From Candidatus Aminicenantota bacterium (GTDB taxonomy: Bacteria; Acidobacteriota; Aminicenantia; JAMOAD01), in contig JAMOUT010000002.1 of assembly GCA_027061995.1 (NCBI GenBank), positions 1 through 64,000 of the forward strand: a stretch of 64,000 nt of DNA, written 5' to 3'. Below the pieces are notes generated by a model. The model was not told the origin of the DNA and searched no databases. It was given only the letters and a program-made list of their open reading frames with translations. Below are positions 43,717-60,342 of the stretch, piece by piece (positions within the stretch are counted from its first letter, which is position 1; every line of letters starts with the position of its first letter). The position numbers were made by a program, and so were the translations under genes.

Positions 43717-44814
43717 CTAACCCCGAACTATTTTATCAAGTGTTGAAGCAATATCTTTAATATCTAAAATATAGTCTGCTATTCCCGCATCAACAACAGC
43801 TTTAGGCATACCGTAAACAACACAACTCGCTTCATTCTGAGCTATGATTACCGCCTTGTTTTTCCTTTTTATTTCGACAAAACCATCTTTTCCGTCACTT
43901 CCCATTCCCGTTAACATCACACCGATAACCTGACCTTTGTATGTTTCCGAAACAGATTTTGCCATAACAGATACCGATGGTTTATATATGGCATTTTTCG
44001 GTTCTTCCGATATTATCACTTCAGGTAAACCTACTGAATATCTTTTAAGATACATGTGTTTTCCGCCGGGAGTAATTAAAACAGTCCCTTTTTCCACCTT
44101 ATCCCCCGTAGTAGCTTCTTTTACCGTTATTTTCGATAATCTGTTCATTCTTTCTGCGAATGTTCCGGTAAATGCCGCTGGCATATGTTGTGAAATAATT
44201 ATTCCCGAGGGGAAATCCTCCGGAAGCTTTGGTAAAATATTATTTAATGCATTAGGTCCTCCCGTGGATGAACCGAGAACAACCAATTCTATAGGTTCCT
44301 TGACCTCTGTTTTATCAACAACCATTGTCTTTTGAGGTTTTACCTCTTTCTTTTCCAATGGTTTATTTTCTCTCCTTCTCTTTCCTAAGAAAGGAAATCC
44401 GTAAATTCTTTTTTTCCTTGCTATATTTTCTATCTTCGGAATTAAATCATCTTTAATCGCTTTAATATTAGCATTAAAATCTTTCATCTGTTTCGGAAAA
44501 AATTCCACCGCCCCCTTTTCCAAAGCTTCAAATGTAATCTCCGCATCCTCTGTTGTAAGAGAGCTCACCATAATCACAGGAGTGGGATTTTCTTTCATAA
44601 TTTTCTCAAGTGCTGTCAAACCATCCATAACAGGCATATTTATATCAAGAGTTATAACATCGGGTTTTAATTCTCCCGCCATTTCAACAGCTTCACTTCC
44701 GTTTTTCCCTTCACCTATAACTTCTATTTTGCCACTGTCATTTAATATCTTACTCATGATTTTTCTCATGAAGCCCGAGTCATCAACTATTAAAACCTTA
44801 ACTTTATCAACCAT
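43717..44814 (-). CDS. cheB: Chemotaxis response regulator protein-glutamate methylesterase
   Basis: Receiver LDINMPVMDG; LGSSTGGPNAL, ISQHMPAAFTGTFAERM, GMGSDGKDG. Confidence 0.95.
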   Translation of the reverse strand: MVDKVKVLIVDDSGFMRKIMSKILNDSGKIEVIGEGKNGSEAVEMAGELKPDVITLDINMPVMDGLTALEKIMKENPTPVIMVSSLTTEDAEITFEALEKGAVEFFPKQMKDFNANIKAIKDDLIPKIENIARKKRIYGFPFLGKRRRENKPLEKKEVKPQKTMVVDKTEVKEPIELVVLGSSTGGPNALNNILPKLPEDFPSGIIISQHMPAAFTGTFAERMNRLSKITVKEATTGDKVEKGTVLITPGGKHMYLKRYSVGLPEVIISEEPKNAIYKPSVSVMAKSVSETYKGQVIGVMLTGMGSDGKDGFVEIKRKNKAVIIAQNEASCVVYGMPKAVVDAGIADYILDIKDIASTLDKIVRG

Positions 44815-45691
44815 TCTTCCCCTCCGACGCAATATTAAGAATCTCCTCTATTCTCTCTTTTAAATCCATCATTTCAAAAGTAAAATATTCCTCATCTATT
44901 TCGGTCAATTTTCTGTTTTTTTCACACATAATTTTCCAAAACCTATTTTCTTTTACTATTAGAGGTTTATATTCCCACGGGAAATTGTATCCTATCTGTT
45001 TTGAAAAAAGATTTGAAAAACCCACTACTGCAACAATAAGCCTGTTTTTCATATCATTATCTAAATCATGATGATACCTTATAGCTTCCTGTATATTCAA
45101 AGGCATCACCCATTTTTTTGCAACTTCATACCCGAATTCACTATGATTTAATCCGAAAACCTCTTTCTCAATCTCTACATAATCTCTCTCCTCTTTTGTA
45201 GCCAATGATACTACTTTATTATATTCATCGGGAAAAAACTGATTCATTAATATTTTACCTACATCATGTAATAATGCGGCCGTATAAACCTCCTCCGGAT
45301 TTACTAATTTAAATTTTTTGGCAAGATATTTTGCGATACATGCGGTTGCCGTTGAATGATGCCAAAAAAGAATTCTGTCAAAAGATTTTCCCCCCACTTC
45401 CAAAGGAAACATCTTTATTATACACATGGATATAACAACATTTTTTATGGTATCCATCCCGAGTAATGAAACAGCTTGCCCTATGGTTTTAATCTCCAAA
45501 CCACGATTATAATAAGGGGAATTAGATAGCTTGAGAATTTTCGTTGCCAAAATAGGATCTTTTTCTATAAAAACACCAATCCCTTTGATGGATACTTTTG
45601 GATTTTGAACAAGCTTTAAAAATTCTATAGCTCCCTTCGGGAAGGCAGGGACATCTTTTAATTTTTCTAATAATACTCTTATTTTATCCAT
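44807..45691 (-). CDS. HDOD domain protein
   Basis: KLSNSPYYNRGLEIKTIGQAVSLLGMDTIKN, AALLHDVGKILMNQF. Confidence 0.92.
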   Translation of the reverse strand: MDKIRVLLEKLKDVPAFPKGAIEFLKLVQNPKVSIKGIGVFIEKDPILATKILKLSNSPYYNRGLEIKTIGQAVSLLGMDTIKNVVISMCIIKMFPLEVGGKSFDRILFWHHSTATACIAKYLAKKFKLVNPEEVYTAALLHDVGKILMNQFFPDEYNKVVSLATKEERDYVEIEKEVFGLNHSEFGYEVAKKWVMPLNIQEAIRYHHDLDNDMKNRLIVAVVGFSNLFSKQIGYNFPWEYKPLIVKENRFWKIMCEKNRKLTEIDEEYFTFEMMDLKERIEEILNIASEGKNG

Positions 45692-46521
45692 TAAAAAACT
45701 TCCATCTCTTCCTTTATTTTATCGATATTTTCATCGTTTATCCGTATTAACTGATCTTTTGATATATTAAGAATATTAAGTGCCGGTGTCTCAGGTGAGA
45801 TATCAAAATTCTTATAAAAGCCGAATCCATTATAATTACTTAATTTATCAGCAAGATTAACTACAGCTGTTTCCTGAATGAATTCCGAAGCAAGGGGGGG
45901 ATTATGATGATAAAATACAACATTTTTTAATCTTTCACCAAGATTCCATTCCTGAACCAAAAATAATCCAACAGCAGCGTGAGTAAACCCGAGAACCTTT
46001 TTCTCTATCTCTTCAAAACTAATTCCCGTCATCATAACCTCGTCCATAATAGGTTTATATGTATCGGGAATGTTTTTATTTAAAACAACTTTTCCTATAT
46101 CATGTAAAAGACCTGCTACAAACATCTCTTCTGCATTATATATATTCAGTTTTTCGGTAATTATCTTTGATATTAATGCCACTGACACAGAATGTCTCCA
46201 AAGAAGGATATCGTATTTGTCTCCCTTCTGCATAAATTTTTTAGTGGAAAGCGCTATTATTAATGACTTAAGATTTACAAATCCGAGATAATTTACAGCT
46301 TGTCTGATTGAGATAACCTCTTTTCTTAAACCATAATACGGAGAATTAACTATTTTCAATATATCAACCGTAAGAGCCTGCTCCATTTTTATTAATTCAA
46401 CAAGATCACCGACTTTTGTATCGGGATTATTAAGCATTTGTATTAATTTGATGGAAATTTGTGGCAATGGAGGCAAAGAGCCTATGGTTTTAATTATGTC
46501 TTTTATATCAATTTCAATCAT
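45691..46521 (-). CDS. HDOD domain protein
   Basis: KIVNSPYYGLRKEVISIRQAVNYLGFVNLKSL, AGLLHDIGKVVLNK. Start set at MIEIDIKD. Confidence 0.92.
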   Translation of the reverse strand: MIEIDIKDIIKTIGSLPPLPQISIKLIQMLNNPDTKVGDLVELIKMEQALTVDILKIVNSPYYGLRKEVISIRQAVNYLGFVNLKSLIIALSTKKFMQKGDKYDILLWRHSVSVALISKIITEKLNIYNAEEMFVAGLLHDIGKVVLNKNIPDTYKPIMDEVMMTGISFEEIEKKVLGFTHAAVGLFLVQEWNLGERLKNVVFYHHNPPLASEFIQETAVVNLADKLSNYNGFGFYKNFDISPETPALNILNISKDQLIRINDENIDKIKEEMEVF

Positions 46522-47338
46522 TTTTTTTCTCCTCCTTTTTATAAAATATAACTTGCGGATAATGAACAATCTTAAATTTATTATTAACAGAAAATATGGA
46601 TTCGCTTTTACCCAGCATTAGTATTCCATTGTTTGAAAGTCCGTTATAATATATATCAAGAGCTTTTTTCTTGCTTTCGCTGTCAAAATAAATCAGAACA
46701 TTTCTACTTAGTATTAATTCACTATCTTCAATCAATCCCTTAAATTGTTCATCTAATATATTCATCTTATAAAATTTTAACATATTTTTTATCTCACTTG
46801 CAATAATATAATGATTATTTTCCTTATTAAAATATTTATCTATTATATTCTTTGGAGTTACTCTTAATGAAAACTCTCTGTATTCCCCTTTTTTCGCTCT
46901 ATCTATCATGGAAGAATCAATATCTATACCTATTATCTCTATTCTATTATTAATATAAGGATATTTCTCTTTAATTAATATTGCAAGAGAGTAAGGTTCT
47001 TCGCCCGAAGAACATGCAGAGGAGATTATTTTTATATTTTGCTTATCCTTTATTTGTTTAGAGAAAATTTTATCCAAATATGTTTCCAAATAATTTAACT
47101 CCCTGAAAAAATATGTTTCATTAATGGTCATCTCATTCAAAAGATTCTGAAACTCTTCTCTATCCCTGTTAATCAGATTGAAATAATTTTCAATATTATT
47201 ATTTTTAATATATTCCATTCTTTTTAATAACTTTATTTTTAGAAATTCAAATCGAGATTCCCCGAAATACAAACCACTTCTTTCATATAATATTTTATGA
47301 AATTTCTTTAAATCACTGTAATCTACATTATGTATCAA
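46514..47338 (-). CDS. cheR: Chemotaxis protein methyltransferase
   Basis: INETYFFRELNYLETYLDKIF, IISSACSSGEEPYSLAILI, LILSRNVLIYFD. Confidence 0.95.
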   Translation of the reverse strand: MIHNVDYSDLKKFHKILYERSGLYFGESRFEFLKIKLLKRMEYIKNNNIENYFNLINRDREEFQNLLNEMTINETYFFRELNYLETYLDKIFSKQIKDKQNIKIISSACSSGEEPYSLAILIKEKYPYINNRIEIIGIDIDSSMIDRAKKGEYREFSLRVTPKNIIDKYFNKENNHYIIASEIKNMLKFYKMNILDEQFKGLIEDSELILSRNVLIYFDSESKKKALDIYYNGLSNNGILMLGKSESIFSVNNKFKIVHYPQVIFYKKEEKKND

Positions 47339-47357
47339 TACTCTTTAACCTCTCCTT

Positions 47358-48242
47358 TTATCCTAATGATTTGATTCTTTCCTCCTTGCTCACTATTTCG
47401 GTTATTCTTAATGCAAAATTAGATTCTACCACAACTACCTCCCCTCTTGCAATAAGTTTGTTATTTACCAAAAGTTCGACAGGCTCATCAACGATTTTAT
47501 CAAGTTGAATTATAGAGCCTATCCCGAGCTTTAATATGTTTTTCAGATACATTGAAGTTTTTCCTATTCTAACTATTATCGGAAGATCAACATCAAAAAG
47601 CATGCTCAGCTTTGAGTCCATGGATTCTCCTGAAAAATTAGTTTGTTTTGAAACAGAACTTTTTTTGCTCGGTGAGACTGATGAAGAAGAGTTGTTTTTC
47701 TCTTTCCCTTCCAAATATAGCATAATCTCCGGAGACAAAACAAAGACGAATTTTCCCTTTTTCTGTTCAATATCAATACTACTATCAATAAAGAATATAT
47801 CATCCGACTTAATTGTATCATAAATTTCACCGACATCAAGCTCTTTTATATTCGCTTGATTAAAACCGAAAGATTTTCCCGATGCCTCTTTTAAACCGAG
47901 GGCTAATGAACTTGATACCTGATTCATTGTTTCACTTAAAGCGTCTATATCTTCATCATTAATCTCGTCTTTTTCCTCTTCAACACCAACCATTAAATTA
48001 GCAATTAATCCTGCCAATTTTTTGTCAAAAAGCAAATATACTCTTCCTTTACTCTCTTTTTGTTCAATTTCAGCCAATACAATTTTTCGATTTTCTGTAA
48101 ATTTGTTTACTACAATATCTTTTGTAGCCTCTTCAAATTCACCAACTTCAACTTTAATCTCTTTTCCGAGAAGCATAGTTAAAACCGAAACAATAGATTC
48201 TTTTAAGTTTTGTTTTAAATAATTGTTTATGGCTTCATTCAT
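47358..48242 (-). CDS. fliY: FliY-type flagellar switch protein (CheC-like + SpoA)
   Basis: CheC-like ALSETMNQ motif; C-terminal SpoA domain LSMLFDVDLPIIVRIGKTSMYLKNILKLGIGSIIQLDK. Confidence 0.88.
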   Translation of the reverse strand: MNEAINNYLKQNLKESIVSVLTMLLGKEIKVEVGEFEEATKDIVVNKFTENRKIVLAEIEQKESKGRVYLLFDKKLAGLIANLMVGVEEEKDEINDEDIDALSETMNQVSSSLALGLKEASGKSFGFNQANIKELDVGEIYDTIKSDDIFFIDSSIDIEQKKGKFVFVLSPEIMLYLEGKEKNNSSSSVSPSKKSSVSKQTNFSGESMDSKLSMLFDVDLPIIVRIGKTSMYLKNILKLGIGSIIQLDKIVDEPVELLVNNKLIARGEVVVVESNFALRITEIVSKEERIKSLG

Positions 48243-49239
48243 TATCCAACCTCTTTATTATTGATTTTATTTTTACTCCCCTTTTACCGTCAATCTCAAT
48301 TAAATCCCCTTTAAATTTAGGTTTATCAGAGACAACAAGCATAGGATTTAAAAAATTTTGTTTTTCCAACATAATAAGATCCCCTTCCTCCAAATCTAAT
48401 ATATCTTTAAATGTAAGTTGCTGCCCTTTTATGTCCACAAACATATTAAACATTGCATTCTTTAAAACTTCACCTACTTTTTCAACTTCATTTTCCGATA
48501 CTTTTCTCTTTCCAGTGTACCAATCCTGAGAAAACTTATTTGAAATAGGTTCAAGAACAATAGAAGGGATACAAAAATTTACCATTCCGGAAGATGCTCC
48601 CATCTTAATCTCAAAAATTATGAGAACTATCCCCTCATTAGGAGCAACAATTTGAATTAATTGCGGAGATGTTTCCTGAGTTGATATCTTGATATCCAGG
48701 TCTATTATCTGTTTCCACACCTCTTTCATATCCCTTAACATAAGATCCAAAACACCATTCATCAGATTCATCTCTATTTCGGTGATGGTTCTTGATATCC
48801 CCTCCTGAGGAGCTCCGGCTCCACCAAGTAATTTATCCAAAAGAGGAAAAACAATCGAAGGATTCATCTCTATTATGGCGTTTCCTTCAAGGGGAAACAT
48901 TGATATAGCATTAAAAAAAGTGGGATCAGGTAAAGATAAAATAAACTCGGCATATGTAAGCTGTTCAACAGATACAAGATTCACTTCGATTAAAGCTCTT
49001 AAATATGCGGAAAGGGAAGATGAAAAGTTTCTCGCAAATCTATCGTGCAAATAATGGATGGATCTTATCTGATCCTTTGAAATTCTATCGGGTCTTCTGA
49101 AATTATATATCGTAACTTTTTTTATCTCATCATCTGTTCTTACCTCGGATGGAACTTTCTCAACACTGCTTACACTTTCCTCATCTGATAACGAGTTTAA
49201 AAGAGCATCGACCTCTTCCTGAGATAAAATTTTAGCCAT
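48235..49239 (-). CDS. fliM: Flagellar motor switch protein FliM
   Basis: ILSQEEVDALLNSL, YNFRRPDRISKDQIRSIHYLHDRFARNFSSSLS. Confidence 0.96.
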   Translation of the reverse strand: MAKILSQEEVDALLNSLSDEESVSSVEKVPSEVRTDDEIKKVTIYNFRRPDRISKDQIRSIHYLHDRFARNFSSSLSAYLRALIEVNLVSVEQLTYAEFILSLPDPTFFNAISMFPLEGNAIIEMNPSIVFPLLDKLLGGAGAPQEGISRTITEIEMNLMNGVLDLMLRDMKEVWKQIIDLDIKISTQETSPQLIQIVAPNEGIVLIIFEIKMGASSGMVNFCIPSIVLEPISNKFSQDWYTGKRKVSENEVEKVGEVLKNAMFNMFVDIKGQQLTFKDILDLEEGDLIMLEKQNFLNPMLVVSDKPKFKGDLIEIDGKRGVKIKSIIKRLDNE

Positions 49240-49975
49240 TTCTACCTCCTTTCATATTCTTTATGGTATAAAATTCATCTATTTTTCCCTTTAATCTTAT
49301 TATAGCCTGACTTCTGAGTTGAGATACTCGCGATTCGGTTATATTCATTATCTTCCCTATCTCTTTTTGGTTTAGGTCTTCATAATAATATAATGTTATA
49401 AGTAATTTCTCCCTTTCTGGAAGGTCTCTGACAGCCTCTGTTAAAACTCTTTTCAATTCATCCAAGAGCATCTCTTCACCGGGTGAAACAGTTTTCTCAT
49501 CTCTTAAATAATATAAAACTAATTCGCCGTTCGTGTTATCACCCGTATCTCTATGATTATTAAATGATATGATTTTATCTCCTCTATAATTGTATAATAA
49601 TTCCCTGAACTTTTTTATATCAATATTAAGATATTCAGCCACATCTTCGTCCGTAGGTGGAACACCTTTTTCTCTTTCCAAATCAAGGTATGCTTTCTCT
49701 ATCTCTTTTTTTCTTTGTCTTGCCGATCGGGGTAATAGATCTAATTTTCGCAATTCATCAAGTATGGCACCCCTTATCCTGATAGGAGCATAATATTCAA
49801 ACTTAATACCCATTTTCTCATCATATTTATCAATAGCATCTATCAAACCTATTATTCCGGAATTTATAAGATCATCCAATTCCACACTTTTCGGTATATT
49901 TGAATGGATTTTCATTGCAATTGTTTTCACCATAGGAAGATATTGTAATATATTATTTCTATCCTTTTTTTCCAT
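49232..49975 (-). CDS. fliA: FliA/WhiG-type sigma-28 factor
   Basis: SVELDDLINSGIIGLIDAIDKYD, YAPIRIRGAILDELRKLDLLPRSARQ, YYYEDLNQKEIGKIMNITESRVSQL. Confidence 0.96.
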   Translation of the reverse strand: MEKKDRNNILQYLPMVKTIAMKIHSNIPKSVELDDLINSGIIGLIDAIDKYDEKMGIKFEYYAPIRIRGAILDELRKLDLLPRSARQRKKEIEKAYLDLEREKGVPPTDEDVAEYLNIDIKKFRELLYNYRGDKIISFNNHRDTGDNTNGELVLYYLRDEKTVSPGEEMLLDELKRVLTEAVRDLPEREKLLITLYYYEDLNQKEIGKIMNITESRVSQLRSQAIIRLKGKIDEFYTIKNMKGGRNG

Positions 49976-50843
49976 CTGTTTTAAAGTTTATCATTTTTTT
50001 CCAACTTTCATAACTATCTCCGGTTTTATTGTTCCAAGATAATCTGTTTAGTAAAATTCGAGCAAGATTATTAAATGCAGCACTAATTTTACTTTCAGGA
50101 AAAGATTCTACAACAGGTTTTTGATTTCTAACAGCCTCGGCCACCCTTTTATCAAACGGCAAAAATCCCATAAGATTAAGATCCTTACCGAGAAACCTAT
50201 CGGCAACATTATTTATTTGATCAAAAACAGCTTTTCCCTCGTCCATATTACTAACACTGTTCACAACAATGGAAATCGGTTTTGCAGGATCATACCCGGT
50301 AATGACTTTTATAATGGCATAAGCATCTACAATAGAAGTTGGCTCGGAATTAACAATAATAATTATATCCTCGGACATTAATAAAAAACTTAAAACAAGA
50401 TCCGATATGCCTGCGGCTGTATCTATAAGTAATATATCGGTAAAATCCTCTATCTTTGAAATCTCGCTTAATAATTTTTCCTCTTGTAAAGAATCAAGAT
50501 TTGTTATCTCCTGTATTCCCGACGAAGCGGGAACAATCTTTATACCTTGTGGTCCTTCGACAATAATATCCTCTATGCCTAAATCATCTTTAACAATATC
50601 AACTATATTATGTTCGGGAGTAAGACCTAAAAGTATATCAATATTAGCCAAACCAAGATCAGCATCAAAAACAGTTACCTTTTTCTTTTTCTTTTGCAAT
50701 GCTATCGCAAGATTAACAACAGTGTTTGTCTTTCCGACCCCCCCTTTTCCGGAGGTTATCGCTATCTTTTTCATCCCTCGTTGATTATTCCTCCTAATGT
50801 TGATATTTTTTTTAAGTTTTCTTAATGTTTCAGCTTGATCCAT
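49959..50843 (-). CDS. flhG: MinD-like ATPase FlhG
   Basis: N-terminal MDQAETLRKL motif; IAITSGKGGVGKTNTVVNLA. Confidence 0.95.
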   Translation of the reverse strand: MDQAETLRKLKKNINIRRNNQRGMKKIAITSGKGGVGKTNTVVNLAIALQKKKKKVTVFDADLGLANIDILLGLTPEHNIVDIVKDDLGIEDIIVEGPQGIKIVPASSGIQEITNLDSLQEEKLLSEISKIEDFTDILLIDTAAGISDLVLSFLLMSEDIIIIVNSEPTSIVDAYAIIKVITGYDPAKPISIVVNSVSNMDEGKAVFDQINNVADRFLGKDLNLMGFLPFDKRVAEAVRNQKPVVESFPESKISAAFNNLARILLNRLSWNNKTGDSYESWKKMINFKTDGKKG

Positions 50844-51978
50844 TTTTAATACTCCTTAATAATAAATTTGTTAATTTTTGTGAAGATGCAATCTCTATAT
50901 CCTCGGGAACTTTTTGACCGGTTGTCCAGAATGAAAGACTTTTTTTACTGTTAATAATCGTATTAAAAACATTCCCATAATTGAAAGTTTCATCCATTTT
51001 TGTGAATATTATAGAGGTCGGATTTAATATTTTGTAAAGCTCCATAATTTTTAAAAGATCGATAGATTTTGTTGTGGCTGATAGAACTAACAATTTTTCG
51101 ACCCCTTTTATATCAAGAAATTCAGCATCTCTTAATAGAGAATCTTTATCCGGTTTTCTGCCGGTGGTATCTATAAAAATCAAATCATAATCGGCAAACA
51201 TTTTCAAATACTTTTTAAGCTCATCTTTATCGTTTGCAAGAGCAAAAGGAATACCTATCAGAGAAGCGTAGGTTTTAAGTTGTTCCTGAGCTCCTATTCT
51301 GTAATTATCAACACTGATGAGTGCAACTTTCTTTTGTTCTCCCAGATAATAATTGGCTGACAATTTTGCTATTGTTGTTGTTTTCCCCACACCCGTGGGA
51401 CCTACAAAAGCAATTATCTGTTTTCTACTGCCATCTATAACCTTAACATCCGGCAAAGCGCTGTAAACAGTTTTCCAAAGAAAAGATTTTAAATAATCAT
51501 AATTATCCCGATATTTTATGGGAATCTGATAATCCATTATCTTAACTATCTTATTAGCAATAGATTCACTCACTCCTTCATTTAAAAGATATCTGTATAT
51601 ATCGTAAAATTTACCGCTGAAATCAAAATTATCCGATTTATGAAATGATTTTTTTATTAACTCTTTAATATCTTTAATCTCCTCTTTCAACGGCTCTATA
51701 TTCAACTCTTGTGTGCGAAACTCATCAACCATTTTAACAATATTTGCCAATTCTTTAATTTTTTTACCCTCATCATCTTTTATTTTCACAATTGCGGGTG
51801 AAGTTCTGAAAGGTGGATATGCTGATTCTCTTTCAACAGCTGCAATTATCTCTATCCATTTTTCCCCTTTTTCAGTAATTTGTTTATCGGAAAGGATAAA
51901 AGCATCCTCTCCCATCTCCTCTTTTATCCTCTCCATAGCTTCTTTAATACTTTTAACTTTAAATTTTTTTATCTGCAT
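50830..51978 (-). CDS. flhF: Flagellar SRP-type GTPase FlhF
   Basis: FVGPTGVGKTTTIAKLSANY, ISVDNYRIGAQEQLKTYA, IDTTGRKPDKDS. Confidence 0.96.
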   Translation of the reverse strand: MQIKKFKVKSIKEAMERIKEEMGEDAFILSDKQITEKGEKWIEIIAAVERESAYPPFRTSPAIVKIKDDEGKKIKELANIVKMVDEFRTQELNIEPLKEEIKDIKELIKKSFHKSDNFDFSGKFYDIYRYLLNEGVSESIANKIVKIMDYQIPIKYRDNYDYLKSFLWKTVYSALPDVKVIDGSRKQIIAFVGPTGVGKTTTIAKLSANYYLGEQKKVALISVDNYRIGAQEQLKTYASLIGIPFALANDKDELKKYLKMFADYDLIFIDTTGRKPDKDSLLRDAEFLDIKGVEKLLVLSATTKSIDLLKIMELYKILNPTSIIFTKMDETFNYGNVFNTIINSKKSLSFWTTGQKVPEDIEIASSQKLTNLLLRSIKNGSS

Positions 51979-51979
51979 T

Positions 51980-54052
51980 TTATACGACTCCTAATGAGAT
52001 TACTTTTATGTTTGAAGGGATTTCAGCTGCCGAGAGAATGACAAGATTGGGAATCGCTCTTTCCGTAATTTTTCTAAGATGCACTCTGACATCCGGTGAA
52101 GTTAAAATTATCGGCTGAACTTTTAATCCCGATTTTCCAATTGCTGTTTTTATCCTGTTTATTATCTCCTGCGCTGTTTCAGGTGATAAAAACAATTGTT
52201 CGAATCCCTGGGATTTATCTATACTTTTTTGAATTATCTCCTCTATATCCTGGTTAAGCACAAGAGCGGGTAATTCATTGTTTTGTGTTAAATATGGCAT
52301 GACCAAAGATCTTGCAAGAGATTGTCTTACAAGTTCTGTTAGTTGAGTTAAATCCCGAACAGAAGGAGCATAATCGGCAAGTGTTTCAAGGATTGTAAGC
52401 ATATCTCTTATTGAAACATGCTCTTTCAAAAGATTTTGTAAAACTTTATGAATTTGCCCCACACTTAATACCTTAGGGGTAAGTTCTTCAACCACCTTGG
52501 GATAATTTTCCCCTACCATATCTATCAACTTTTGTGTATCCTGCCTGGTTATTATCTCAGAGGCATATTGTTTTATTATCTCTTTCATATGGGTTGATAT
52601 AACAGTCGAAGGGTCAACAACAGTATAACCGAGAAATTGAACCTGCTCTCTGTTTTTTTCCTCAATCCAATAAGCTTCAAGATCAAAGGCGGGGTCTTTT
52701 GTTTCTATCCCTTTTATTTTCTCTTTGGCATTTCCCGGATTTATCGCAAGAAGAAGATTAGGATATACTTCCCCTTTTGTTACAGGGATATTTTTAACAA
52801 GTATCTGATACTCTTTCGGAGCCAATTTCAGATTATCTTTTATCCTTATTGAAGGAACTATTATTCCGAGTTCAATAGCAATCTGTTTTCTTGTTGTTTT
52901 AATTCTTTTCAACAAAGGAGCATCATTTGCCCTGTCAACAAGAGGTATTAGAGAATATCCTACTTCAATGCCGAGGATATCAACTCTGAGAAGTTTTTCT
53001 ATCCTCTCCGGAGCGGGAATAGCTTTCCTTTTCTCCATCTCCTCTTTTACCTGTATCGCCTCTTTTGTCTGTTTCTCTTTATATAATCTGTAAGCAAGAT
53101 ATCCGAACAAACCTGAAATAATAAAGAAAGGAATTTTAGGTAATCCCGGGACCAGCCCCAATAAAAAGAGTGTCCCTGCACCAAATGCCATAGGTTTTAT
53201 ATTAAAAAATATCTGTTTTGTCATGTCCGAGCCGAGATTTGAATCAGCTGCAGCTCTTGTTGCTACAAGACCTCCTGATATCGCTATTAGAAGAGATGGT
53301 AGAGCTGAAACAAGCCCGTCACCTACGGTTAGTATCGTGTATGTTTTAAGAGCTTCCGAAGCTGACATCCCTTTTTGTAAAATTCCTATTAAAAGTCCCC
53401 CTATAATGTTTATGAAAGTGATAATAATGGAAACAAGAGCTTCCCTTGATGTAAATCTTATCGCACCATCCATTGCCCCGTAAAATTCAGCTTCTTTTCT
53501 TATCTCTGCCCTTCTCTCTTTTGCTTCATCTTCCGTAATTAATCCCGAATTCAAATCAGCATCAATGCTAAGTTGTTTTCCGGGCATGGCATCCAATGTA
53601 AACCTTGCTGAAACTTCACTCGCCCTAACGGCTCCATGAGCAACAACCATAAATTGTATTGCAATGATAACAATAAATACAATTATACCAACCACATAAT
53701 TTCCACCTACAACGAATTTTCCGAAGGCGGCGATAACATGTCCCGCAGCTGTTATACCCTGATCACCTCGTAAAAGAATCAATCTTGTGGTCGAGATATT
53801 AAGAGCCAACCTGTAAAGTGTTGCTATAAGCAATAAAGAGGGAAAAACAGAAAATGACACAGGTTCGGTTAAATAAGCTGTTATCATTATGATGGAAACC
53901 GCAAGTGTTATATTTATTGATAGAAAAATATCAAGTAATGCGGGGGGCAATGGAACAAGGATTAAAATAAGAATGGCAATAATAAGAATCGGAGCTACAA
54001 TATGAGCTTTTTTTAATAAAAAATTGTCAAGAGTAAGTGTTCCTGCCGGCAT
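51980..54052 (-). CDS. flhA: Flagellar export protein FlhA
   Basis: 690 aa; PSLLLIATLYRLALNISTTRLIL, FTLDAMPGKQLSIDADLN. Confidence 0.97.
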   Translation of the reverse strand: MPAGTLTLDNFLLKKAHIVAPILIIAILILILVPLPPALLDIFLSINITLAVSIIMITAYLTEPVSFSVFPSLLLIATLYRLALNISTTRLILLRGDQGITAAGHVIAAFGKFVVGGNYVVGIIVFIVIIAIQFMVVAHGAVRASEVSARFTLDAMPGKQLSIDADLNSGLITEDEAKERRAEIRKEAEFYGAMDGAIRFTSREALVSIIITFINIIGGLLIGILQKGMSASEALKTYTILTVGDGLVSALPSLLIAISGGLVATRAAADSNLGSDMTKQIFFNIKPMAFGAGTLFLLGLVPGLPKIPFFIISGLFGYLAYRLYKEKQTKEAIQVKEEMEKRKAIPAPERIEKLLRVDILGIEVGYSLIPLVDRANDAPLLKRIKTTRKQIAIELGIIVPSIRIKDNLKLAPKEYQILVKNIPVTKGEVYPNLLLAINPGNAKEKIKGIETKDPAFDLEAYWIEEKNREQVQFLGYTVVDPSTVISTHMKEIIKQYASEIITRQDTQKLIDMVGENYPKVVEELTPKVLSVGQIHKVLQNLLKEHVSIRDMLTILETLADYAPSVRDLTQLTELVRQSLARSLVMPYLTQNNELPALVLNQDIEEIIQKSIDKSQGFEQLFLSPETAQEIINRIKTAIGKSGLKVQPIILTSPDVRVHLRKITERAIPNLVILSAAEIPSNIKVISLGVV

Positions 54053-55119
54053 TAAAGTCTCCTCTTTTTTAACTTATATACATATGCCAATACTTCGGCA
54101 ACAGCTTGGTATAATTCAACGGTTATTGTCTCATTAATTTCTACATCCTTATAAATCCGCCTTGCAAGTGGAGGATTTTCAACTATCGGAACACTGTTTT
54201 CCTTTGCCACCTGTTTAATTTTAAGTGCTATATAATCAACTCCCTTTGCAACAAGTTCAGGTGCCTTCATACTTGATTTATCATATTTTAGGGCAACCGC
54301 AAAATGTGTAGGATTTGTTATGACCACATCAGCCTTAGGAACCTCCTGCATCATCCTTTTCATGGCATAACCAAATTGTATGTTTCTGATTCTACCTTTT
54401 ATCTGAGGATCTCCCTCATATTGTTTAAACTCCTCTTTTATCTCTTTTTTACTCATTTTTAAATTTTCAATATAATCATATTTTTGATACAGATAATCAA
54501 AGATAGACAAAAACATTATAAATAATGCAACCTTAAATGTTATTGCAAATGCAATGCTTCCGATGATTTTTAAAATAATTATAAGCGGGTTTCTCGTTAT
54601 AAACATTATTTTTTCAAAATTTCCGCTGATTGTTGAAAAAGCAATCCACGCTATAATAGAAACCTTAATAAAATTTTTTATTAATTCTACAATCGTTCCT
54701 CTTGATATAAGAACTTTTTTAATCCCTTTAACAGGATTCAATCTACCGAAATTCAATGATAATTTTTTAAATTTTATAAAAAATCCTCCCTGCGGAATAG
54801 TAGTTATAAAAGAGATCATTATAAACAATGCTGTTATCGGAATTAATATTGATACATATGTCATCAAACCGTTTCTCATTACGAAAATAAAATTAGTTGA
54901 ATTTAATCTCATACTTCCTGCCAAACCATAATAAAAAACAAAAGAGTCCTTTATTTTATTACCGATAAACGGAAGATAATATATCATCATCAAAGATATG
55001 GTTAACAGTATCACCCCCTCACTTATCTCTTTTGATCTCGGAACATTTCCCTCATCCTTGGCTTTTTTTAATCTCCATTGCGTAGGTTTTTCCGTCTTGC
55101 TCGACTTATCTTCCGGCAT
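54052..55119 (-). CDS. flhB: Flagellar export protein FlhB
   Basis: SSKTEKPTQWRLKKAKDEGNVPRSKEI; autocleavage motif ITNPTHFAVALKYD. Confidence 0.97.
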   Translation of the reverse strand: MPEDKSSKTEKPTQWRLKKAKDEGNVPRSKEISEGVILLTISLMMIYYLPFIGNKIKDSFVFYYGLAGSMRLNSTNFIFVMRNGLMTYVSILIPITALFIMISFITTIPQGGFFIKFKKLSLNFGRLNPVKGIKKVLISRGTIVELIKNFIKVSIIAWIAFSTISGNFEKIMFITRNPLIIILKIIGSIAFAITFKVALFIMFLSIFDYLYQKYDYIENLKMSKKEIKEEFKQYEGDPQIKGRIRNIQFGYAMKRMMQEVPKADVVITNPTHFAVALKYDKSSMKAPELVAKGVDYIALKIKQVAKENSVPIVENPPLARRIYKDVEINETITVELYQAVAEVLAYVYKLKKRRL

Positions 55120-55122
55120 CTT

Positions 55123-55893
55123 TTACCTCATTAAAAAATAATTTGATACAACTGTAGGGATATCCCTAACTCCGTTTTTCCATAAACCGAACGAGATTGA
55201 GAATATGAATGAGAGAGCAATCAAACCGAGAGCTATTTTGAGTGGAAACCCAACAAAAATTATCTGAATCTTAGGGGAAACTTTACCTATTAATCCGAGC
55301 GTAATATCAACGGCGATAACAGTTGCTATACCAGGGGCACCTATCTTTATTGCCGTTAAAAATACTTTTTTTATTAAAAACACTATATAATTCAAACTTC
55401 CTATCTTTACCACAAAAACACCCGGAGGTATATATTTGAAACTTTCTTTCATAGCCCATATAAAATAATAGTGTCCGTTTATAGCTATAAAGATAGTGGT
55501 TGCAAGGAGTAATGAAAAAATGGTTAAAATATTATTATTAACATTACTCATGGGATCCACCATAGAAGCCATTGTAAATCCAATCTGAAATCCCAGAACT
55601 TCACCCATAATAATAATACTCATGAATATTAGATTTACAATAAACCCTAACATATAACCCGCTAATATCTCCTTTATAAAACATATTGATAACATAAACA
55701 TATTAGATGGGATTATCCAAGTTTTAAATCCGACAAACGGAAAAATCACTACCGCTATAAGCATTGAAAACATTAATTTGGATTTATTCGGAATAGATGG
55801 ACTTGAAAAAATGGAAATAGCTGCTAAAAAAGCCGTTATTCTCACCATCACAAGAAAAAATTGTTTCCAATAAAACATATTTAAAAGTTCCAT
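55123..55893 (-). CDS. fliR: Flagellar export protein FliR
   Basis: Position between fliQ and flhB; FKEILAGYMLGFIVNLIF, QIGFTMASMVDPMSN. Confidence 0.95.
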   Translation of the reverse strand: MELLNMFYWKQFFLVMVRITAFLAAISIFSSPSIPNKSKLMFSMLIAVVIFPFVGFKTWIIPSNMFMLSICFIKEILAGYMLGFIVNLIFMSIIIMGEVLGFQIGFTMASMVDPMSNVNNNILTIFSLLLATTIFIAINGHYYFIWAMKESFKYIPPGVFVVKIGSLNYIVFLIKKVFLTAIKIGAPGIATVIAVDITLGLIGKVSPKIQIIFVGFPLKIALGLIALSFIFSISFGLWKNGVRDIPTVVSNYFLMR

Positions 55894-56166
55894 CTACCCT
55901 CTTATGAAATAAGGGATATTTTTCAGCAAATAATGGACAAGAGAGATAAGTTTATTAAGCATCCATGGCATCGTAAAAAAAAACACAACTATTGCACCGA
56001 GAACCTTAGGTGCGAAATTCAGAGTTGCATCTGAAATGGATGTCGCAGCCTGAAAAATACTTATAAATAACCCTATTAATAATGAAATGATTAATATAGG
56101 AGCCGAAACTAATATTGCGGTCCAAATCGCTTGCTTAGCTATCGCTAATATCAATGCTTCACTCAT
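55894..56166 (-). CDS. fliQ: Flagellar export protein FliQ
   Basis: 90 aa, LISLLIGLFISIFQAATSISDATLNFAPK. Confidence 0.96.
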   Translation of the reverse strand: MSEALILAIAKQAIWTAILVSAPILIISLLIGLFISIFQAATSISDATLNFAPKVLGAIVVFFFTMPWMLNKLISLVHYLLKNIPYFIRG

Positions 56167-56167
56167 A

Positions 56168-56911
56168 TTATCCTCCGAAACTCTTTACCAATGCCCCTAC
56201 AAGCAAAGTCCAACCATCCGCCATAATAAAAAGTATAATTTTAAACGGAAGAGAAACCATAACAGGGGGGAGAAAAATCATCCCCAATGAAACAAGAATG
56301 GATGCAACAACCACATCAATTATCAAAAAAGGGATATATAGTAAAAAACCTATCTCGAATCCTGTTTTTATCTCACTTAAAATATATGCCGGAATAAGAG
56401 TTGTCATTTGAACTGCATCTCTGTTCTTAGGAGGAGCGGATTTGGATAAAGAGATAATAAATTTCAGATCTTTTTCCCTCGTTTGCCTAAGCATATACTT
56501 TTTCAGTGGGATACCCGCTTTTTGAACAGCTTGTATCTCATTAATTTTCCCGCTTTCATAGGGAACAATAGCCTGACTATATATATTATTGAATGTGGGG
56601 GTCATTATGAAAACGGTTAAAAAAAGAGACAATCCCACTATAACCTGACTCGGAGGCATCTCTCTCGCTCCAAGCGCTTGTTTTAAAAAATAAAAAGTTA
56701 TAAGTATTCTTGTAAAAGAGGTTAAAATCACAAAAAGTGTTGGCAATAGGGAGAGAAAGGTCAACAAAACTGCGATTTTTACAGGCAATGACCATGAATT
56801 AACCCCTTTTACATTAATTGTGAAAGAGGGATTATCAGCGGGTGGGGCTGCCCATATATTAGCCGATAATAATAGAATAATTATAATAAGAATAATTTTT
56901 TGTTTTTTCAT
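56168..56911 (-). CDS. fliP: Flagellar export protein FliP
   Basis: LPTLFVILTSFTRILITFYFLKQALG, PPSQVIVGLSLFLTVFIM. Confidence 0.97.
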   Translation of the reverse strand: MKKQKIILIIIILLLSANIWAAPPADNPSFTINVKGVNSWSLPVKIAVLLTFLSLLPTLFVILTSFTRILITFYFLKQALGAREMPPSQVIVGLSLFLTVFIMTPTFNNIYSQAIVPYESGKINEIQAVQKAGIPLKKYMLRQTREKDLKFIISLSKSAPPKNRDAVQMTTLIPAYILSEIKTGFEIGFLLYIPFLIIDVVVASILVSLGMIFLPPVMVSLPFKIILFIMADGWTLLVGALVKSFGG

Positions 56912-57279
56912 TTTTCAACCGATTTAACCTCTTTTAATTTTTCCTTGAATATGTTGAAAAAACTCCCGCTTTTCTCATTATGCTTGCTGTTTACACTTTC
57001 TTCATTCAATTCCAATGATTTGATATAATTAACCGTTTGAGGAGTTACTCCCAATAAAATTGTTTCCTTGTCTATTTTAACTATATAAAGATATCTCCTT
57101 TCCCCGAGAGGATATCGGGATATTATTTTAATCATACTTGAATTCAGCAAGCCTCCGTTTTTCATGTTTACTTTTTTCATAATATAGCTTAAAAGAAAAA
57201 TAAGCCCGAGTATGAAAAGCAAAGCTAAAAAAACTTTAAAAGAGGAGTATGAAAAATTTTGTCCGTTTATCTGCTGCAT
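56908..57279 (-). CDS. fliO: FliO-like protein
   Basis: Single TM + SH3-like RYPLGERRYLYIVKIDKETILLGVT; position upstream of fliP. Confidence 0.85.
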   Translation of the reverse strand: MQQINGQNFSYSSFKVFLALLFILGLIFLLSYIMKKVNMKNGGLLNSSMIKIISRYPLGERRYLYIVKIDKETILLGVTPQTVNYIKSLELNEESVNSKHNEKSGSFFNIFKEKLKEVKSVEK

Positions 57280-57593
57280 CAGATCTCCCTCGGATCATAT
57301 ACATCTGTTATTCTAATACCGAAAGTGCTTTCTATAACGGTTATTTCACCTTTACCGAAATAGCTTCCGTTAATATAAATATCAACGCTTTCACCCGCCG
57401 ATTTATTAAGTCTAATAACGGAACCTATTTGAAGATTTAGAAATTCCTTAACAGACATCAACTTTCTGCCGAGATCAACTTCAATATCAGCTCTTAAATC
57501 AATGAAATTTTCCCAATCTTTAATAATCTTTTTAAAAGCGGGAAGAGATTCAATCTCTTTTCCCACATCATCAATGTTTGAAATATCAACCAT
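57279..57593 (-). CDS. fliN: Flagellar switch protein FliN (SpoA domain)
   Basis: ADIEVDLGRKLMSVKEFLNLQIGSVIRLNKSAGESVDIYINGSYFGKGEITVIES. Confidence 0.92.
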   Translation of the reverse strand: MVDISNIDDVGKEIESLPAFKKIIKDWENFIDLRADIEVDLGRKLMSVKEFLNLQIGSVIRLNKSAGESVDIYINGSYFGKGEITVIESTFGIRITDVYDPREI

Positions 57594-57604: not shown

Positions 57605-58219
57605 CTATTGAATTACAAAATCAATAAAATAACAGTTTGTAATAATATCCTCTCCGAATTCTTTATTTAACACCTCATTCACCTTAGCAATAATCTCTTG
57701 CTTTAAAGATAGTTTTCCCGATACTGTTTTTAACTCTTCAAAAGTTTTAGAACTTAAAATCAAAAAAATCACATCTCTGATCTTCGGAATCAATAGCTCA
57801 TTTGTCCTAATCTTATCTTCATACTCTTTTTTACTTAACTCGAGTTTTAACATAACTTTCATATATCTTCTTCCTATAGGATCATTCAGATTAACTATGA
57901 ATTCATTTAAGGATAAAATCCCTTTTTGAGTCTCACCATTATCCTTGGCAAGGTCAGTTTCATCTTCACCGGTTGTTTCTTTTGCAGAGGTATTATCCTG
58001 AGCATCTGTCTTTTGAGTTGTATCACCACTTTTAACAACCTTGTTTTCCCCGTTCTTTACATCCGTTTTCTCAACAGGTGGTTGCTTAGGTGCAAGAAAA
58101 AATTTATAAACGGCAATTCCTCCTCCGAATGATAACAAAACTATGATTATCACCATGATTAAAGAAATCCCTTTCTTACCCTCTTTTTCTCCCAAATCAA
58201 TTTTTTCTTCTTCTCCCAT
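57605..58219 (-). CDS. fliL: FliL-like basal body protein
   Basis: Single TM, linker, GILSLNEFIVNLNDPIGRRYMKVMLKLEL. Confidence 0.92.
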   Translation of the reverse strand: MGEEEKIDLGEKEGKKGISLIMVIIIVLLSFGGGIAVYKFFLAPKQPPVEKTDVKNGENKVVKSGDTTQKTDAQDNTSAKETTGEDETDLAKDNGETQKGILSLNEFIVNLNDPIGRRYMKVMLKLELSKKEYEDKIRTNELLIPKIRDVIFLILSSKTFEELKTVSGKLSLKQEIIAKVNEVLNKEFGEDIITNCYFIDFVIQ

Positions 58220-58900
58220 TTAAATCCTCCTTAAATATATTGTTATTTCAACTCTTCTGTTTTTACTTCTGTTCTCGGGAGTTGTCTCGGGATACAACGG
58301 ATTTGAAGAACCATAACCCGCAACAGCCATATTGCTTGTATCAACTCCCGCATTTTTAAAATAATTAAGAACAGCAACAGCTCTTTTTATGGATAAAAGT
58401 TCATTGTCTATTTTTTTTGATACTGTATTATCAGTATGTCCTTCAATTACGATGGAAGTATTATACTGTTTTAAAATCCCGGCTATTTTCTCAAGAACCT
58501 TATATGACGAGGGTAATAGTTTATATTGATTGACATGAAATAACAGTTTTTCACCGATTATCAAGGTTAATTTTTGATATCCAGAATATAATCTCACCTC
58601 ACCCGATCCTTTATAATTATTGTAAAGTTCCCCCAAATTATCAATGAGTTTTATCTCTTTTTCCGTAAGCCTGACGATAGGAACTCCGGGTATAGGGGTA
58701 AAATTTATATTTTCTGAAGGATAATCATTTGATTTATTGATATTTACATTTAACATATTTTTAAATAATCTGTATCCTTCGGGTGTAATATTAGAGATGC
58801 CGAAAAGCATTACAAAAAAAGTTAAAAGCAATGTTGACACATCGGAAAAAGTAAGCATCCACTTAGTTTCAACACTTTTCGTAAACATCCTTTTTTTCAT
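58220..58900 (-). CDS. motB: Stator protein MotB (active-type)
   Basis: TM WMLTFSDVSTLLLTFFVMLFG with ion-binding Asp; OmpA domain IEGHTDN ... NRRVEI. Confidence 0.95.
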   Translation of the reverse strand: MKKRMFTKSVETKWMLTFSDVSTLLLTFFVMLFGISNITPEGYRLFKNMLNVNINKSNDYPSENINFTPIPGVPIVRLTEKEIKLIDNLGELYNNYKGSGEVRLYSGYQKLTLIIGEKLLFHVNQYKLLPSSYKVLEKIAGILKQYNTSIVIEGHTDNTVSKKIDNELLSIKRAVAVLNYFKNAGVDTSNMAVAGYGSSNPLYPETTPENRSKNRRVEITIYLRRI

Positions 58901-59569
58901 TTAATCCTCATCTACAAATTTTATCTTCAGAAAAGAGCTTTCTTTATCATCTTCAAGATTGCCGTATCCCATTATAACCATCTTCTTTTGTTCCACACCT
59001 TGCTGTTTGAAAAATTTATAAACAGTTAAAGCTTTTAGTGCGGCAAATTCATAACTGTTAATATTACCGCTCTCTTTCTGATTTGAAAATCCCTCTATAT
59101 AAATATAATAAGGGAGATATTTAGCAAGATAACCTATCTTAACAAGTTCTATATAAGCCTTGGGATTGATAGCTGTTTTTCCTTTCTCAAAGATGGTTTT
59201 CGTCGGAAAACTTAATGATGCTCCGTTATCTCCAACTCTTACTCCCAATTTTATTAAATCGGCATCATTTAAATATTCCTCCATCTTTTTCTTGGTTAAA
59301 CCTTTTTCCCTCAGTTCTTTTATTATAACAGCCAAGTTATCCCCCTCCCCTGTATCAAGAATGGATATTTTTCCCCTTCCTTTCCCTTTTTTGAAAACAA
59401 GAGATTGTTTATAGGATTTTTGGAAAGCTTTCATTTTTTTCATTGTTTTTATGGTATAAGATGAAAGAGAGATGAAAAAAGTCAGAACAATTAAAATCAT
59501 GGAGATATAAAGTGGAAGCCATCTGTTTTTTTTACTATTTGTTTTATTTTTTATTTTTCTCTTTATCAT
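58901..59569 (-). CDS. MotB-like paralogue lacking ion-binding Asp and PG-binding residues
   Basis: TM WLPLYISMILIVLTFFISL aligns to MotB with Asp to Ser; degenerate OmpA domain IEGFSNQ ... SSFLKIKF. Confidence 0.8.
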   Translation of the reverse strand: MIKRKIKNKTNSKKNRWLPLYISMILIVLTFFISLSSYTIKTMKKMKAFQKSYKQSLVFKKGKGRGKISILDTGEGDNLAVIIKELREKGLTKKKMEEYLNDADLIKLGVRVGDNGASLSFPTKTIFEKGKTAINPKAYIELVKIGYLAKYLPYYIYIEGFSNQKESGNINSYEFAALKALTVYKFFKQQGVEQKKMVIMGYGNLEDDKESSFLKIKFVDED

Positions 59570-60342
59570 AAAGAACCTTCTCTAAGATATCTTTCCCTTA
59601 TATTTGTCGGCAGAAAGGAGACAAGTTTTTGCTCCACAACTCTCGGTATATCACCTTGCTGAACGGTTAATAAGCCATTCATAATCATCTGTTTTTTAAG
59701 AATTTCAAAATTTGATCTCTCTTTTAATTTACCGGCAATGGGGAGAAAAACCACATTAGCAAGAATAGCTCCGTAAAAAGTTGTAACAAGTGCTATGGAC
59801 ATTGCAGGTCCTATTTTGGAGGGACTATCAAGAGATTTAAGCATTAAAATCAGACCTATCAGAGTTCCTATCATTCCGAAAGCTGGAGCATAATTACCCA
59901 TGGCCTCAAATAATTCGTAACCTATTCTATGCCTCTCGGAAAGATAATCAATCTCATTTTCCAAAACCTCTTTTATAGTAATCGGATCAATTCCGTCAAC
60001 TATCATCCTCAATCCTTCCGCAAGAAAAGTATCCTCTTCATCATCTATATATTTTTCAAGTGCAAGAAGCCCGTCTCTTCTTGAGACTCTCGAAAACTCA
60101 ACAATCCGAGGAACAATGTCGATAAGTTCATCAGCGGAATAGAAAAAGGCGTTTTTAACAACTTTAAACACTTTAAGAATATCTTTAAGCTGATAATTAA
60201 CAAGAACGGCTCCGAAAGTTCCACCGAGAACTATCAATATGGATTGCCAATTAAAAAACACATTAAGATTACCTTGAGATGCTATGGCAATCACAACCAA
60301 ACCGAAAGAAGTTACAATTCCGAGTAAAGTCGTTAAATCCAA
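59566..60342 (-). CDS. motA: Stator protein MotA/PomA
   Basis: SRRDGLLALEKY, YAPAFGMIGTLIGLILML, SIALVTTFYGAILAN; TTG start after GGAGG. Confidence 0.96.
   Translation of the reverse strand: MDLTTLLGIVTSFGLVVIAIASQGNLNVFFNWQSILIVLGGTFGAVLVNYQLKDILKVFKVVKNAFFYSADELIDIVPRIVEFSRVSRRDGLLALEKYIDDEEDTFLAEGLRMIVDGIDPITIKEVLENEIDYLSERHRIGYELFEAMGNYAPAFGMIGTLIGLILMLKSLDSPSKIGPAMSIALVTTFYGAILANVVFLPIAGKLKERSNFEILKKQMIMNGLLTVQQGDIPRVVEQKLVSFLPTNIRERYLREGSL

Follow-up and report, generated by a model that had tools for sequence, protein, structure and literature searches.

The nearest known systems to the locus described here are the motA-motB1-motB2 operon of Aquifex aeolicus and the AglRQS gliding motor of Myxococcus. 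In Aquifex, one motA gene is followed by two motB genes whose products have TM/N-terminal regions that are 97% identical and differ at one residue, and chimeras of either MotB powered E. coli motors (PMC4525482), indicating that both B subunits carry a working ion site. AglRQS combines one A-type with two B-type genes, and the conserved Asp is present in AglQ as well as in AglS (PMC9389320). A stator is usually described as one A and one B subunit, and models of the 5:2 rotary motor assume two identical B subunits whose Asp residues take turns. In that cycle ten ions are coupled per turn by alternation between two Asp sites, and a five-ion motor has been held to need 'an entirely new model' (PMC9389320). 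A MotB without the ion-binding Asp has been made artificially in B. subtilis, where MotB D24A co-expressed with wild-type MotB is dominant-negative for motility (PMC3963450). The part of a MotAB diversity survey considered here inferred B subunits by their proximity to A subunits and makes no mention of Asp-less B paralogues (PMC12505986), and we found no earlier description of a natural Asp-less MotB paralogue in the open-access literature.

The motA-motB*-motB locus

The window is a stretch of 64,000 nt from a metagenome-assembled genome of Aminicenantia (Acidobacteriota), and all positions refer to the numbering of this whole stretch. A flagellar and chemotaxis cluster lies on its minus strand, in the gene order motA, motB*, motB, fliL, fliN, fliO and onward. 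The motA gene (59566..60342, minus strand) has a TTG start and encodes a MotA/PomA-like stator A subunit of 258 aa; it shares a 4-nt overlap with the gene that we call motB* (58901..59569, minus strand), whose 222-aa product is an Asp-less MotB paralogue predicted to be defective in wall binding. The following gene, motB (58220..58900, minus strand), encodes a canonical MotB of 226 aa with Asp20, GHTD and NRRVEI, and fliL (57605..58219, minus strand) lies directly 3′ of it. An earlier note on this DNA had described tandem MotB genes here, and both its coordinates and its peptides were correct when the translations were rechecked.

The same cluster continues on the minus strand with the export and switch genes fliN-fliO-fliP-fliQ-fliR-flhB-flhA (51980..57593), among which fliP, fliQ, fliR and flhB were assigned from sequence only, and then with flhF, a ParA-type flhG-like gene, a sigma factor gene, fliM, a FliY/FliN-like gene, cheR, two genes for HDOD proteins and cheB (43717..51978). 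Two FliN-type proteins are encoded in the cluster, a 294-aa FliY/FliN-like protein after fliM (47361-48242) and a 104-aa FliN after fliL (57282-57593). The tandem HDOD-domain pair separates cheR from cheB (44807-46569), and a similar pair follows cheR in another locus (L038).

Judged by profile and fold comparisons, MotB* is a full-length MotB homologue, from the TM helix (residues 17-37) through a plug and linker region (38-105) to the OmpA-like domain (106-218). The profile of the MotB* family aligns with residues 13-225 of the solved MotB chain 6ysf (E 2.5e-18), and profile-profile comparison (hhalign) with the family of the neighbouring MotB gave a probability of 99.55% over 186 columns. 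MotB* and MotB of the same operon are only about 22% identical. MotB* scored above the cut-off for Pfam OmpA (37.2 bits) and below it for Pfam MotB_plug (19.4 bits, cut-off 24), and the NCBIfam MotB models gave this copy at most 48.6 bits against cut-offs of at least 250. The predicted periplasmic fold has H. pylori MotB as its best Foldseek match (E 1.7e-9); the AF2 model has a mean pLDDT of 66, with low confidence outside the TM helix and the OmpA-like domain. The MotB-type W, the LTFF motif and the plug-region Phe are retained, the latter being invariant in both proteins (F49 in MotB*, F46 in MotB; MAFFT alignment).

Residues of the ion site and of wall binding

Like MotB, PomB and MotS, MotB* has a single N-terminal TM helix with W...LTFF, a plug Phe, a linker, an OmpA-like domain and a motA neighbour, but it differs from them in an invariant Ser in place of the ion-binding Asp and in the absence of the GHTD, N and NRR residues. 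Where MotB reads WMLTFSDVSTLLLTFF, IEGHTDN and NRRVEI, MotB* reads WLPLYISMILIVLTFF, IEGFSNQ and SSFLKIKF. Ser23 aligns without a gap with the ion-binding Asp of MotB by three methods (MAFFT, profile-profile, and profile against 6ysf), as the earlier note had read it, and a frame or start error masking an Asp is thereby ruled out. All nine MotB* sequences that we recovered have Ser at this site, while each of the 43 other MotBs of our phylum set has Asp (43/43), so that on these alignments the Ser is more than a chance substitution. Herein lies the difference from the systems above: the Aquifex operon likewise holds one motA and two motB genes, but both of its B subunits are functional, whereas a TM Asp in both B subunits is a trait absent here. 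AglRQS shares the arrangement of one A-type and two B-type genes, but its B subunits both bear the Asp and its motor serves gliding and not the flagellum. The B. subtilis D24A mutant resembles MotB* in being a MotB without the ion-binding Asp that is produced alongside a normal one, but it is artificial and dominant-negative, whereas MotB* is a natural and long-retained paralogue.

The residues of wall binding are largely gone as well. Compared with the 43 phylum MotBs, the columns of H155, T156, D157, N166, R215 and R216 are conserved in none of the nine MotB* sequences and that of N214 in one of nine, and we infer from this loss that MotB* no longer binds the wall. The earlier note had both signatures lost, and this held for these residues; the Arg of LSxxRA (MotB R173 column), however, is present in 7/9 MotB* sequences, with Lys in the copy of the window, so that the wall-binding groove is stripped but not wholly erased. 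Structural positions are kept (W14 8/9, F29 9/9, F121 9/9, G154 8/9, A174 9/9, G195 8/9), in agreement with the MotB-type fold that the note had proposed, and a further set of residues is invariant and specific to MotB* (P153, Y154, Y184, F187, K196 and F218).

An OmpA-like fold kept with its own invariant residues after the loss of wall binding could point to a separate protein, anchored in the inner membrane outside the MotA pore, that serves as a periplasmic scaffold or assembly factor and whose OmpA-like domain would build a ring or dock stators in a role like that of Vibrio MotX/MotY or of the C. jejuni scaffold. OmpA-like proteins do act in motor scaffolds elsewhere (PMC9093738). MotY of the Vibrio MotX/MotY T ring is itself an OmpA-like domain protein of the stator region, but the MotB* profile matched proteins of MotB type and no MotY. 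MotY is not known to have a MotB-like TM helix. The retention of the MotB-type W, LTFF and plug Phe speaks against such a scaffold, to which we return below.

Distribution, selection and origin

A profile search found motB* in 9 of 142 Aminicenantia genomes, which belong to five genera and two families and are all flagellated. Full-score FliG_N matches occurred only in these nine genomes and in one other (G484, 79% complete), in whose assembly a profile search found no motB* and no operonic motB; there the MotB profile matched other OmpA-type proteins, one of which we read as Pal-like and one as coming from another stator. We therefore rejected G484 as a counterexample, and most simply its operon is missing from the assembly. 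Hence every flagellated Aminicenantia genome in which the operon is visible in the assembly carries motB*. Four weak FliG_N matches in another family (f7) fall in ORFs of some 458 aa, which probably encode MgtE-like transporters.

The motB*-motB pair occurs in 9/9 loci and the order motA-motB*-motB in 8/9, with motA upstream wherever the contig reaches; the gene order and the loss of the ion relay with the operon position kept, both put forward in the earlier note, thus extend to the relatives. The two genes overlap or abut in all nine (-4 nt in seven, -1 and 0 in the others), so that the stretch just 5′ of the motB start falls within motB*. The motA/motB* junction is a 4-nt overlap in one family and a gap of 97-136 nt in the second. 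The other Acidobacteriota flagellar loci that we inspected showed no second B gene beside motB and had Asp in every MotB; we thus rejected motB* as a general feature of the phylum, the loci elsewhere in it having a single Asp-bearing motB beside motA. When 84,980 species genomes were scanned with a single degenerate TM pattern, an approach that is weak for distant relatives, 313 stretches were returned, of which only 7 were relatives, all in Aminicenantes/Acidobacteriota records, and a search of plasmids found none.

The frames of motB* are intact in the nine genomes, with no internal stops. In the two closest genome pairs, to which the estimates are limited by saturation of dS in wider pairs, dN/dS was 0.115 and 0.19-0.20 for motB* and 0.09-0.10 and 0.22 for motB. 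The gene is under purifying selection and is not decaying, and we rejected it as a pseudogene on the basis of the intact frames and of dN/dS values of 0.12-0.20. The earlier note had named retention of the Asp in homologues and decay of the gene in relatives as observations that would speak against it, and we found neither; its term pseudo-stator fits MotB* as a residue-dead paralogue but not as a decaying gene. A relic duplicate without function would agree with the loss of catalytic residues and with the long branch of the copy in one genome (G002), but intactness in 9/9 genomes of two families, the low dN/dS values and the invariant residues, including the Ser, make it very improbable.

In our tree, MotB* forms one clade (100/99) and the operonic MotB another (98/93), and each is split into the same two families. 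Since both clades divide into the same two groups, the duplication and the loss of the Asp most likely predate the split of these families, the two genes having been co-inherited since; the MotB* clade sits on a long branch, which leaves its exact sister group unsure. The G002 copy (L037:2726-3388) has a long branch of its own (1.78) and has lost even conserved Gly residues of the OmpA core that are kept by the other MotB* proteins, a case of faster evolution in one genus. Elsewhere in the Acidobacteriota, a family (f31; L103, L104, L110) has a MotB whose TM sequence, TFADLM(V/I)QLMAFFA, is unusual and which also lies on a long branch.

A possible heteromeric stator

We propose, with a probability of about 0.5, that MotB* is a selected, residue-dead paralogue whose partner within the MotA5 ring is MotB. 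The TM helix of MotB* would supply the second of the two helices of the axle, and its OmpA-like domain would serve as a structural partner or dock on another periplasmic part. More tentatively, the product would be a natural MotA5-MotB-MotB* stator with one ion-carrying Asp and one peptidoglycan anchor in place of two, passing about half the ions per turn. A two-site turnstile with one Asp would work in 72-degree cycles, with lower torque and about 5 ions for each turn; otherwise the cycle would be a modified one. Insertion of MotB* in the MotA pore, its pairing with MotB and the halved ion count are steps that we infer from the comparisons below.

Mean pairwise identity among the MotB* proteins is 0.62 in the TM helix, against 0.41 in the OmpA domain and 0.38 elsewhere. 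The TM helix is thus the best-conserved part, as it is in MotB (0.68, and 0.45 in the OmpA domain) and unlike in FliL of the same operon, whose anchor helix (0.42) is less conserved than its periplasmic domain (0.55). This pattern fits a MotB* helix that is buried in protein and not in lipid. A scaffold outside the pore would account for the loss of wall binding but not for the conservation of the helix, and the constant overlap or abutment of motB* with motB also counts against it; we regard it as unlikely. A helix conserved for contact with a different membrane protein would, however, look identical.

The overlap or abutment with motB in 9/9 loci, together with the motA overlap in one family, suggests coupled 1:1 translation of MotB* with MotB, though the gap of 97-136 nt between motA and motB* in the second family counts against the pairing. 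The MotA of the operon retains the conserved TM3/TM4 and TT residues. We favour pairing with MotB because it covers the helix conservation, the overlap with motB and the MotA residues with the least assumption, and the first two of these appear to favour it over a loose scaffold. Heterodimers, a brake and a scaffold part had all been raised in the earlier note, whose interpretation is supported in part.

MotB* could also form MotA5-MotB*2 units that do not conduct, or poison mixed units, and so serve as a brake or a decoy or limit the number of stators. This reading draws on the dominant-negative effect of the Asp-to-Ala MotB in B. subtilis (PMC3963450) and accounts for the loss of the Asp but not for the fixed coupling to motB, since a gene on the same transcript and with apparently coupled translation is better suited to a fixed partner; units without wall binding, moreover, could not hold the rotor well. 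We consider it quite improbable. The same effect of D24A beside wild-type MotB (PMC3963450) weighs against the pairing with MotB, as it means that a partner lacking the Asp, unless adapted, poisons an ordinary stator. The standard turnstile, which swaps protonation between two sites and takes 10 ions per turn, is a second difficulty for the pairing, and the low confidence of the MotB* model outside its TM helix and OmpA-like domain is a third.

If MotB* works in the ring, this lineage has overcome the dominant-negative effect of an Asp-less MotB, and MotA5-MotB-MotB* would either be a case from nature that contradicts the two-site turnstile or show its cycle at work with a single site. An Asp-less B subunit kept beside a normal one since before the split of the families would be a natural experiment on the question of five or ten ions. 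The lineage also bears on the formation of B-subunit heterodimers, which is at issue for AglRQS as well, and MotB* points to a specialisation of subunits within the stator.

In every motB* genome there is at least one additional stator B gene with the Asp, so that the motB* stator could serve as a second, specialised gear. In one genome (G000, contig C34:~15600-17100, L042) we observed another complete motA-motB pair, which has the Asp, GHTD and NRR and adjoins a CRP/FHA-like gene. An additional stator B gene of a different type is present in G056 and G485, with an A subunit of 285 aa in G056.
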